From contig QZJQ01000011.1 in assembly GCA_003599795.1 (NCBI GenBank), positions 1 through 49,030 of the forward strand: a DNA stretch of 49,030 bases. Reading direction: 5' to 3'. Positions 9,727 through 16,266 of the stretch are shown here, in pieces (the stretch's first letter is position 1; each line of letters opens with the position of its first letter). Below the pieces are notes generated by a model. The model worked only from the letters and a program-made list of their open reading frames with translations. It was not told the origin of the DNA and did not search any database. The position numbers and the translations under genes were made by a program. Source of the DNA: Nitrospiraceae bacterium (GTDB lineage Bacteria; Nitrospirota; Thermodesulfovibrionia; Thermodesulfovibrionales; UBA1546).

Positions 9727-11106
9727 TCAGAACTTTTTGGTGAACTTGACCAGCAGCCGGTCGTTTTCCTTCCACCTGCCGAGATGTGTTTTTTCTCCTC
9801 CGTTGAACCATTCATAAAATGTCTCTATTGACATCCCGTCTTTAAATTTACGCTCGTAAGTTATGCGGTGAGTATTGTCCTTTTTGGAAATGTTGTAGAT
9901 GGCTCCGTAAGACGCCTTATTTTTGTCGTCAATATCAACCTTTTGAAGTATGTATATGGCATTGCGGCCCAGACGCGAAGACCGCTGGTTTGCAGGGTAA
10001 TCAGGATGGTTCTGGTCTTCAAGCACCCACTCGTTTGAATACTCAGCAATGAGCTTGGCAGAGTCTATAGCGTCAATCTTCAGGAAAGTATTGAGATCAT
10101 ATTCGGTTCCGAACACATAATTGATGTAGGAATCTTCTTTTCTGTTTTCAGGAATCTGGCATACGCCTTCGCCGTGCAGTTCCCATTTTCCCTGCACTGT
10201 GGAAAATCCCGCAGCAAGAATACCGCCCTTTATATACTGTTTTTCATATTGATTGGCGCTCACGCGCTTAAGCACGGGATTGGGCAGATAGCCTTCGTAA
10301 GCGCTTACAAAAAAATCAACGCCCTCAACAGTCATCTTTTGCTTTAGCATAAAACCTGAATCAGTCAGATGATGCCGTATTCTCTTTTCCCTAATCTGGT
10401 AGTCGGTGCCGGCTTGGCCGGGAATATCCGAATCAACGAGGTCATAGTCGCCTTTGCCTGCGCTCCACCGCGCATGTTCCGGAGGATATCTTGATTTCTG
10501 AAAATAAGGCATCAGCCGAACCTCAGTGCTGTTATTACCGGTGTAATAATACGTCCATGACGCCTGCCATACCCCGAGTTTATCCGGGTCTGTGGGATGG
10601 TCTGCATCATACTTTGCAATGCGCTTTGCAGGAGAATAAAGAGTGCTTATCCCGTCTTCTATGTATTTATATCCAAATACAAGGTCTGAGGTCTCAAATT
10701 TTTTCTTTACATATAACTGCGAGAAATATGCTATCCGGCTTGGGCCGTACTGGTCTTTCTCAGAGCCGTACTGCAGGATAGCGTCAATCTTAATTTCGTA
10801 TTTCATCAGCTCCAGCCATGTATCCATTAACAACTGCGAGTAGAACTGCCTGAATTTAGTATCATCTCCTTTGCCCTGGTCCTGATGCTCGTTGTGTTTT
10901 GTGAAATTATACCCTATTGCGTTCCAGGTCCATTTCGCCTGTTTGAAGGCGGTATAAAAGGGATTTTTTTCTTCCTGTTTCACAGGTTTGTCTGCTGACA
11001 GCAAGGCGTCAAGGTCGTCAGCCTTTGGGGCTTTATCCTGCGCAAAGACAAGCGTTGAAGACAAAATAAGCATTGCGGCCGTTAAAAAGCATCTCATAAG
11101 CGGCAT
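9727..11106 (-). CDS. putative outer-membrane beta-barrel protein
   Basis: Signal peptide, alternating aromatic strands, terminal 'LLVKFTKKF'; operon with MMPL and LolA-like genes. Confidence 0.6.
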   Translation of the reverse strand: MPLMRCFLTAAMLILSSTLVFAQDKAPKADDLDALLSADKPVKQEEKNPFYTAFKQAKWTWNAIGYNFTKHNEHQDQGKGDDTKFRQFYSQLLMDTWLELMKYEIKIDAILQYGSEKDQYGPSRIAYFSQLYVKKKFETSDLVFGYKYIEDGISTLYSPAKRIAKYDADHPTDPDKLGVWQASWTYYYTGNNSTEVRLMPYFQKSRYPPEHARWSAGKGDYDLVDSDIPGQAGTDYQIREKRIRHHLTDSGFMLKQKMTVEGVDFFVSAYEGYLPNPVLKRVSANQYEKQYIKGGILAAGFSTVQGKWELHGEGVCQIPENRKEDSYINYVFGTEYDLNTFLKIDAIDSAKLIAEYSNEWVLEDQNHPDYPANQRSSRLGRNAIYILQKVDIDDKNKASYGAIYNISKKDNTHRITYERKFKDGMSIETFYEWFNGGEKTHLGRWKENDRLLVKFTKKF

Positions 11107-13829
11107 ACCATTTTATCCGTAGTTTCTATAAGGCGGTTTCCAAGAATCTTTGAGATATTGAGGAAGAGTTTTGATGTGATGAACGGGCTCAGGCGGCGCA
11201 GCCTCTCAAGTGTTTTCCAGTCAAGCGATAAAAGTTTTACATCTGTTACGGCAAACACATCAGCTGTTCTCGGCTGGCTGCTGACAAGCGCAATCTCGCC
11301 GAAGACGTCTCCGGGCTCTAATTTGGCAATGGCCTTGCGCTCGCCGTTAACAGCCTTGGATACAGACATCTCTCCGTCAACGACAAGAAACATCTTATCC
11401 CCTGCATCGCCCTCGCGTATTATCTGCTCCCCTGCCTTAGCGTCGCGCATGTGGGACATCAGAATCAGACGCCGTATCTGGAATTTACTCAGCCCCTGGA
11501 GAAGCATTGACTGCTTAATCAGACGGTCTCTAAGCGCAAGCCCGATGGCATCCCACAGAGTGATAAGCCGCACAGATGAAAGCGTAAGAGGCGTGATGAA
11601 CAATTCTGTTCCAAAAGCGACAATCATAACAAACGCGCTGAGCGCGCCGAACTGGGCTATCGGAACAAACTTTGAGAAAATCAGAGTGCCGAAACCCGCG
11701 GCTAAAGAAACGCTGGATATGAATATGGGCCTGATTTCCGCAAGCAGGGTATCTTCAAGCGCCTTTTTTTCATCGCCGTATTTTTTAAGGTTCTGGTTGT
11801 AAAGAACCATAAATACAGTGGTGTCATCAACGGCAATTCCGATTGTAACTGCGGCAACCATAACCGTGCCTGCGTTCAGGGGAATGCCCGCTATCCCCAT
11901 CAAGCCGAAGAATATGGTAACAGGAAGAAGATTGGGAATTAAGACAATAAGCCCCGCCTTCCACGACATAAAAAGAAACGCCATTATTGCGGCTATCATT
12001 AAGGCTGTTGTTGCCAGAGAGCTAATCTGCCCTGATATGAAATTCTCAGCGGCATCCGCAATTAAAACTCCTTCGCCTGTGACAAGTATGCCCGTGTATT
12101 TGCCATAGCGTCCGCTGTTTAAGTCCTTCTTGATTTTTCCGATAATATTATTTAATTCAGTAGAGGAATTTATGTTATGTCGCACCATGATATTGACTTT
12201 AGAGAAATCTCCTGAGACGAACCTCTCTATGTCATTCCTCTGGAAGAACAGCAGGTATTGTGATATCAGATTGTCAGAATCCGGAACTTTGTGGAATGCA
12301 GGGTCTCCGTTCTGCATCCCTTTGTTTACAAGGGCGATGTAGTCAGGAAGGCTCAGCACTGTATCAAAGACCTTTAGGTTTCTCAGGTATGCTTCAGCCT
12401 CCTCTATCTTTTTAAGGCTTGCTGCGGTTTTAAAATCACCGGTATCTTTTTCAAAGACAATATAAAAGATATTCTGCCCTGACAGGTTTTCATGCATCTT
12501 GTCGGCAGCCTTTACAATAGGAGAACTCTTTCTGAAATATGATATGACGTCGTTATTGACATAAATGAAGGCTGTAGCAATCAGCGAGATTATGAGGACC
12601 AAAGAGCTTGTGACTATTATTCTTCTTCTGTATTGATAACCCCAGTAAACTACTTTATGCACAATCGCATTCAGGAGTTTATTGCCCTTCGTATCTTCAT
12701 GAAACCCTCTTGCCATAATGGATTTACCGAAGAACCTCAGGTAAACAGGAGTCATGGTTATTGTCACGAAGAAATTCAGGAGAAACCCGAGACCTGAGGC
12801 AATGCCGAAATCCTGAAGGATAACTACATCAGTGAAGGCAATAGACCCGAAACCGATAACAGTGGTAAGCGCGGTTAAGAAAAATGCTATGCCGAGTTTT
12901 TTGCCTATGCCGACAAGCACCGCCTCTCTCGGAGGCTCGCCCTTTGAAGTGGCATCAAGGAATTCGGCAACCATATGGGTGTCTTCAGTTGCTCCTATGA
13001 CTATCATGATTGCGGGGACAATGGCAGTAAGAGGATTTATAGGCACGCCAAAAAGCTTCATGAATCCGAAGGTCCAGCAAATGCTTATTGCCGCATTGAC
13101 AAGAGGCACTATTGCCCCGTGATAGTTGCCCAGTGTCAGCATTATGGTTAGAAGCAATGCTAAAACTCCGATTGGCACAAGCACAAGCTGGTCGTCAACT
13201 ATATACTCTGACATGGATGTGTTCACATACGGAGCGCCTGTCTGGAATATCTCCTGAAAGTCACCCTTGTATGATGCAATAACATCTTCTATGCCTTTTT
13301 TGATTTTGCTGTCAAACTTATCGTCTTTTTTATCCCTGCTGAGATAGAGGGATATAACAGTGGATTTGCCGTCAGGAGAGATGAAATTTCTGTGAATTAC
13401 CGGATTTTCAATGGCGTCTTTTTGCTTTGAGAGAAGTTCGTTTGTATCCCCCGGTATTATGTCAAGGAGCGGAGCTGTATCAATCATGCCCTGCTGTCCT
13501 TTGATGTTATTGATTGTGAACAGGCTTTCAGCTTTTTCTACGCCTTTGAGGTTAGCCAGTTGGTCAAACATCAGGCGGAGGCGGTTGAGCTTCTTTTCAG
13601 TAAAAAGGCCTGAATCTCTTATATAAACAAAGGAAAGGACGTCAGAGCCGAATATCTTTTTGGTTTCTTCATACCGTTTTTTTTCCGGCGTGTCCCTTGC
13701 CATGAACCTGTCGCTTGAGACATCTATCTTTAACTGAAATGCCGGTATGGCAAGGGAAATAGTCAGTAAAGCGGTGATAAGGATTATAACCCACGGTTTG
13801 TCATATGAAAATCTGACAAGTCTTTCCAT
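11094..13829 (-). CDS. RND/MMPL-family transporter with C-terminal cyclic-nucleotide-binding domain
   Basis: MMPL signature regions; C-terminus 'IIREGDAGDKMFLVVDGEMSV...LEPGDVFGEIALVSSQPRTADVFA' is a CNB domain. Confidence 0.92.
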   Translation of the reverse strand: MERLVRFSYDKPWVIILITALLTISLAIPAFQLKIDVSSDRFMARDTPEKKRYEETKKIFGSDVLSFVYIRDSGLFTEKKLNRLRLMFDQLANLKGVEKAESLFTINNIKGQQGMIDTAPLLDIIPGDTNELLSKQKDAIENPVIHRNFISPDGKSTVISLYLSRDKKDDKFDSKIKKGIEDVIASYKGDFQEIFQTGAPYVNTSMSEYIVDDQLVLVPIGVLALLLTIMLTLGNYHGAIVPLVNAAISICWTFGFMKLFGVPINPLTAIVPAIMIVIGATEDTHMVAEFLDATSKGEPPREAVLVGIGKKLGIAFFLTALTTVIGFGSIAFTDVVILQDFGIASGLGFLLNFFVTITMTPVYLRFFGKSIMARGFHEDTKGNKLLNAIVHKVVYWGYQYRRRIIVTSSLVLIISLIATAFIYVNNDVISYFRKSSPIVKAADKMHENLSGQNIFYIVFEKDTGDFKTAASLKKIEEAEAYLRNLKVFDTVLSLPDYIALVNKGMQNGDPAFHKVPDSDNLISQYLLFFQRNDIERFVSGDFSKVNIMVRHNINSSTELNNIIGKIKKDLNSGRYGKYTGILVTGEGVLIADAAENFISGQISSLATTALMIAAIMAFLFMSWKAGLIVLIPNLLPVTIFFGLMGIAGIPLNAGTVMVAAVTIGIAVDDTTVFMVLYNQNLKKYGDEKKALEDTLLAEIRPIFISSVSLAAGFGTLIFSKFVPIAQFGALSAFVMIVAFGTELFITPLTLSSVRLITLWDAIGLALRDRLIKQSMLLQGLSKFQIRRLILMSHMRDAKAGEQIIREGDAGDKMFLVVDGEMSVSKAVNGERKAIAKLEPGDVFGEIALVSSQPRTADVFAVTDVKLLSLDWKTLERLRRLSPFITSKLFLNISKILGNRLIETTDKMVCRL

Positions 13830-15493: not shown

Positions 15494-16102
15494 TTACTTA
15501 AGCGCTTCAAAAACCTTTCCTACCATCTTTTCAGACGGCTTGAGGGTTTTTCCGCCGGGCTTCCATGAGGCAGGACATGCCTCATCTGTATGCGCCGCAA
15601 GATGCTTGTTAGCCTGAATCTTTCTTAATAGCTCCTCTGCATTTCTTCCGACATTATAAAAATTCACCTCTGACGCAAGGAGTCTTCCTTCGGGGTTTAT
15701 AATGAATGTGCCTCGCAAAGCATGACCTGTCTCTTCGTCATAAACGCCAAACATCTTTGAGAGTTTTGCAGTGCGGTCCGCGGCCATGGGGAATTTTACT
15801 TTCTCAAGCATTTTTTCTTCTCTCTGCCATGCAAGATGAACGAATTTCGTGTCTGTGCTTACTGTGATAACCTCCGCATTTTCTTTTTTAAGGTTTTCAT
15901 ACTGATCTGCCAGATCAGCGAATTCAGTTGCTCAGACGAATGTGAAATCAGCAGGATAGAAAAAAAGTACGGTCCATTTCCCTTCTTTCTTCAGAGCCTC
16001 AAGGCTTCTTTCTCCGAAGAAATTCTCAGCAGGCTCAAAGGTCTCAATCTTAAAATCCGCCACTGCTTGCCCAACTCTCAAACCACAGCATGGTTCGCAC
16101 AT
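15494..16102 (-). CDS. AhpC-type 2-Cys peroxiredoxin, putative selenoprotein (in-frame TGA at 15932-15934)
   Basis: ATG 16100-16102 preceded by AGGAGG; reads MCEPCCGLRVGQAVADFKIETF...WTVLFFYPADFTFV-[TGA]-ATEFADLADQYENL...GTFIINPEGRLL...DEACPASWKPG. TGA occupies the peroxidatic Cys position; no other in-frame stop. Confidence 0.9.
15901..15919 (-). promoter_or_regulatory. SECIS-like hairpin downstream of the UGA codon
   Basis: RNA strand CUGAUCU-GGC-AGAUCAG: perfect 7-bp stem plus closing G-U, loop GGC; loop begins 21 nt after UGA. Confidence 0.65.
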
Positions 16103-16180
16103 AATGCACCTCCTGAAATAATCTTAATTAAATTTTAGCTGAAATTTTATTTTTGTAAAGTCAAGATAAACGGGAAGATA

Positions 16181-16266
16181 TGGTGCCGAAGGCGGGATTT
16201 GAACCCGCACGGGTTACCCCACACGCCCCTCAAACGTGCGTGTCTACCAGGTTCCACCACTTCGGC
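16181..16266 (-). tRNA. tRNA-Leu (GAG)
   Basis: GCCGAAGTGGTGGAACCTGGTAGACACGCACGTTTGAGGGGCGTG...GGTTCAAATCCCGCCTTCGGCACCA; class II arm, encoded CCA. Confidence 0.95.

Follow-up and report, generated by a model that had tools for sequence, protein, structure and literature searches.

Peroxiredoxins with selenocysteine (Sec) have already been published, a Sec-AhpC among them. PrxU of Eubacterium acidaminophilum is a Sec peroxiredoxin (Sohling et al., 2001, as cited in PMC9312934). A survey in 2006 reported 12 peroxiredoxin selenoproteins and counted no Sec-to-Cys conversion for the family (PMC1794560), and the surveyed proteins, often from anaerobes, have a T/SxxU motif (PMC1794560, PMC13188914), which is shared by the protein described here. 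In the Sec-AhpC of Blastococcus saxobsidens, Sec comes from a TAG (UAG) codon with a CUA tRNA-Sec (PMC5330540). Compared by description rather than by sequence, that protein and the present one are both AhpC proteins with Sec followed by a bacterial Sec insertion element (bSECIS), whereas TGA and a UCA anticodon are found here. A search of the literature, with most subscription papers outside it, returned none describing the present clade in Nitrospirota.

The window, which is the whole 49,030-nucleotide stretch of DNA analysed here, is from a member of the Thermodesulfovibrionales (Nitrospirota). Its mechanical ORF list has a 105-aa ORF at 15494-15811, which is the tail of a 202-codon peroxiredoxin frame (Table 1). 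Direct reading and translation of the minus strand confirmed the frame that had been put forward in the first-pass annotation, opening at ATG 16102 behind AGGAGG and continuing through a single TGA (15934-15932) into the listed ORF; the translation has 202 residues, and codon 57 is the sole in-frame TGA. Pfam matches extend across the whole of this reading (AhpC-TSA, E=2.2e-35; Redoxin, 2.8e-15; 1-cysPrx_C, 2.1e-5). Among solved structures, the best relatives are those of AhpC (E=1.9e-49), a similarity that is decisive for the predicted peroxiredoxin fold. In the alignment, the TGA is placed at the catalytic Cys of FFYPADFTFVC, as had been proposed from the sequence. The PxxxTxxC motif of peroxiredoxins is represented by P50-xxx-T54-xx-U57, within FYPADFTFV-U-ATEF, and R130 and C176 (EACPASW) correspond to the conserved Arg and the resolving Cys. 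The AhpC-TSA domain, the PxxxTxx(C/U) motif, the conserved Arg, and the C-terminal resolving Cys of typical 2-Cys peroxiredoxins in the broad sense are therefore all present.

Table 1. Features of the Sec peroxiredoxin locus, in positions of the window.
Feature	Position	Strand	Remarks
Predicted Sec-containing AhpC-type peroxiredoxin	15494..16102	-	Start ATG 16102, stop TAA 15496-15494; 202 codons plus TAA, one TGA predicted to be read through (U57)
Shine-Dalgarno AGGAGG	16109..16114	-	Read directly
TGA, predicted selenocysteine 57, peroxidatic residue of PxxxTxxU	15932..15934	-	TGT/TGC in 14 Cys relatives
TGT codon, resolving cysteine C176	15575..15577	-	Motif EACPASW at 15563-15583
Predicted bSECIS hairpin	15901..15919	-	8-bp stem, 15919-15912 with 15908-15901; 3-nt loop GGC, 15911-15909
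tRNA gene	16184..16266	-	Rfam RF00005; just upstream, same strand; neighbour, outside the Sec system

Conservation of the codon was surveyed in 121 genomes of the same order, with codon counts taken from the stretches fetched. In the window's clade, 47 orthologues (the window included) have TGA at codon 57, spread over 10 families (f1-f6, f8, f11-f13). The residue is Cys in all non-TGA relatives, so that an in-frame UGA stands where homologues have a redox Cys, the pattern by which bacterial selenoproteins are recognized. The Sec peroxiredoxin gene is absent from some close relatives in the 121-genome survey, and this was counted against the favoured explanation. When the window gene is compared with close relatives, dN/dS (NG86) is 0.05-0.08 upstream of the TGA and 0.02-0.06 downstream; purifying selection is strong on the downstream part of the protein, as it is on the upstream part.

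Published rules for bSECIS elements specify a loop of 3-9 nt with a G in the first two positions, a stem of 4-16 bp, 16-37 nt from the UGA to the loop, and a minimum free energy (MFE) of -7.5 kcal/mol or below (PMC13188914). The hairpin of the window agrees with all four, its loop being 20 nt from the TGA and the MFE of the folded window RNA being -9.1 kcal/mol. By itself, this hairpin is only modestly significant, with an energy z of -0.78 and 3 % of 300 synonymous recodings folding equally well, which was also counted against the favoured explanation. In an alignment of 32 distinct Sec sequences, 97.3 % of the hairpin cells are paired and four pairs change on both sides, with double-sided changes in 24 cells as against 6.3 in shuffles. 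Control placements, in which the stem was slid, are 22-54 % paired, and the same stem in the 14 Cys relatives is 51.8 % paired. When codons are recoded synonymously, so that the protein stays fixed, the Sec forms have a mean z of -3.1 and the Cys forms one of -0.1; a scan along the gene finds the folding signal only in the stretch after the TGA. The hairpin therefore tracks the TGA and not the protein.

The metagenome-assembled genome (MAG) to which the window belongs, as contig C6, has 63 contigs with a total of 1.40 Mb and a completeness of 74.7 %. A search of this MAG for selA, selB, selC, and selD had been proposed, with the lack of selB or tRNA-Sec named as the result that would speak against Sec. 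Both are present: a tRNA-Sec (66.6 bits, gathering score 47) with anticodon TCA (UCA), and a SelB with a wing-3 domain (387.5 bits to the full-length model). SelD was likewise found (365 bits). The search was not successful for selA, which was not found in the 74.7 %-complete MAG and is a further point against the favoured explanation. Since selA scores above the cut-off in 7/7 genus mates, and in 108 of 121 searched genomes in all, incompleteness of the MAG is the likely reason. Because selB is over the cut-off in 111 of the 121 genomes of the order, it does not discriminate, and co-occurrence of the TGA with the Sec trait is not usable as evidence. The selD of the same MAG (L005; G000:C2:17300-18226, minus strand) has an in-frame TGA at its own catalytic site (CAG-U-AAKFSP) and is a second selenoprotein.

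In the first-pass annotation, the gene had been regarded not as a pseudogene but as coding for a functional selenoprotein. This is borne out, as far as sequence can indicate, by the presence of tRNA-Sec, selB, and selD, the conserved TGA, the covarying bSECIS, and the purifying selection downstream. If the gene were a pseudogene in decay, or had been sequenced wrongly, with TGT or TGC mutated to, or misread as, TGA, then the missing selA and the mere fragment in automatic ORF lists would be accounted for, but genomes that were assembled separately have the same TGA, in 47 orthologues. Neither an error in the sequence nor decay at one locus can explain a codon shared across 10 families, and both the low dN/dS after the codon and the covarying hairpin argue against this explanation as well. 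Based on the TGA conservation and the downstream selection, this explanation was rejected, and its probability is close to nil. It is highly improbable that the UGA is read as some residue other than Sec, such as Trp or Cys through near-cognate decoding, given that a full bSECIS accompanies tRNA-Sec and SelB in the MAG, that Cys occupies the position in every relative without the TGA, and that the hairpin is missing where the codon is TGT or TGC.

It is also very unlikely that the protein, as a selenoprotein, is a plain member of the known PrxU family (NF040737), of which the E. acidaminophilum protein had been given as the example. The AhpC/TSA fold, Sec at the peroxidatic site, and PxxxTxxU are shared with PrxU, and the score against the PrxU model is 187 bits. 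However, this is below the cut-off of 270, whereas a PrxU-like protein of the same order (L072), used as a control, scores 405 bits. The AhpC-like Sec clade is apart from the PrxU-like clade in both a quick tree and a careful tree (support 100/99 in the latter), and its SECIS stem sequence is different. The resolving Cys is kept in 54 of 55 AhpC-like Sec proteins, the window's included, whereas the same position in PrxU-like proteins is mostly Thr (79/102) and seldom Cys (11/102). The intact resolving motif, pointed out at the outset, is thus what separates the present clade from most PrxU-like proteins. Alignment to peroxiredoxins and PrxU, suggested earlier as a check, supports full-length AhpC/Prx homology but not a grouping with PrxU. 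Membership of PrxU was rejected on the score below the cut-off, the separate clade, and the resolving Cys. The sole exception among the 55 is a Myxococcota Sec-AhpC (L147), in which the resolving Cys is missing (DEGIPSTW).

Judged on this evidence, the locus almost certainly encodes a typical 2-Cys AhpC/Prx1-type peroxidase with selenocysteine as its predicted peroxidatic residue. With AhpC and typical 2-Cys Prx1 proteins (TIGR03137; Salmonella AhpC, 1yf1) it shares homology over the whole length, the peroxidatic and C-terminal resolving positions, and FYPADFTFV. It differs from them in having Sec in place of the peroxidatic Cys, in a score of 211 bits against the AhpC equivalog model, below the cut-off of 272, and in the N-terminal Cys pair of most members of the clade. 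In the window this pair (CCG, 16082-16090; codons 5-6) lies outside the peroxiredoxin core; it is present in about 41-43 of the 55 Sec members and in 12 of 15 Cys relatives. Two contigs (L180 and L193) have two Sec-peroxiredoxin genes each, with two TGA motif matches per locus.

In the careful tree, rooted with three PrxU sequences as outgroup, the clade is made up of the 55 Sec forms and eight Cys forms of family f2 (100/99), with the other Cys forms outside. These eight (L035, L036, L038, L042, L044, L045, L059, and L066), which have lost the hairpin, are one clade (100/95) nested in the Sec forms and adjoining an f2 Sec form (93/96); all eight genomes retain selA and selB. Read most simply, the tree would have Sec replacing Cys once and a single reversion to Cys later on, whereas the 2006 survey had zero Sec-to-Cys conversions for peroxiredoxins (PMC1794560). 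Sequences from the wider contig collection were chosen by a pattern requiring TGA, so they are the matches listed rather than a census, and the pattern is silent on how common Cys forms are beyond the order. Among the matches listed, members from other phyla nest within the diversity of the order in the careful tree, which suggests transfer of the Sec-AhpC gene to other phyla. The CTGGCAG apex of the hairpin is common to members in Rokuibacteriota, Planctomycetota, Acidobacteriota, and Myxococcota, again among the matches listed. Three contigs named Nitrospirae (L119, L149, and L192) are placed among the Sec forms of the order in the careful tree, and one titled Thermodesulfovibrio (L130) groups with f9 relatives in the quick tree. 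The identification of the order as Thermodesulfovibrionales draws on these placements. The clade probably forms a Sec-AhpC subfamily of its own, in which Sec and Cys make up the catalytic pair and scores are below the current curated cut-offs; Sec would have been gained once in it, transferred to other phyla, and afterwards exchanged for Cys in a single family, which kept the Sec machinery while its SECIS eroded.

The window gene stands alone, with the tRNA gene and a UPF0102 gene upstream and a convergent ATP-grasp gene on the other side. Elsewhere in the window (11094-13829, minus strand) is an MMPL-type transporter with a C-terminal cyclic-nucleotide-binding domain, to our knowledge an uncommon pairing. 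Within a few kb of the 47 Sec loci there are genes for desulfoferrodoxin (at least 18), Fur-family regulators (at least 16), flavodiiron protein (at least 13), and rubrerythrin (at least 11), these counts being minima since flank lengths vary between loci. Such neighbours in the relatives are the oxygen and peroxide defence of anaerobes, and they point to a peroxidase in which U57 would be oxidized and C176 of the partner subunit would be resolving. In the proposed mechanism, the stop would be recoded as Sec by SelB and Sec-tRNA(UCA) together with the hairpin that immediately follows the UGA. T54 and R130 would activate the selenolate of U57, which would become a selenenic acid in reducing its substrate, H2O2 or an organic hydroperoxide. 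By the chemistry of peroxiredoxins, a selenosulfide would next link this residue to C176 of the partner subunit, and thioredoxin or an AhpF-like system may then reduce it. A selenosulfide-forming peroxidase is the likely enzyme type by this analogy, and its role in this organism of the Thermodesulfovibrionales would be peroxide removal.

The present branch adds a well-supported member to the Sec peroxiredoxins already published. What appears as a fragment would be a complete antioxidant enzyme, found across a whole order of mostly uncultured bacteria; because the branch falls below the cut-off of the NCBI PrxU model, its genes may easily be taken for truncated ones in annotation. Together, the Sec/Cys pair and the apparent reversion from Sec to Cys within the clade would provide a matched set with which to ask what selenium buys a peroxiredoxin.
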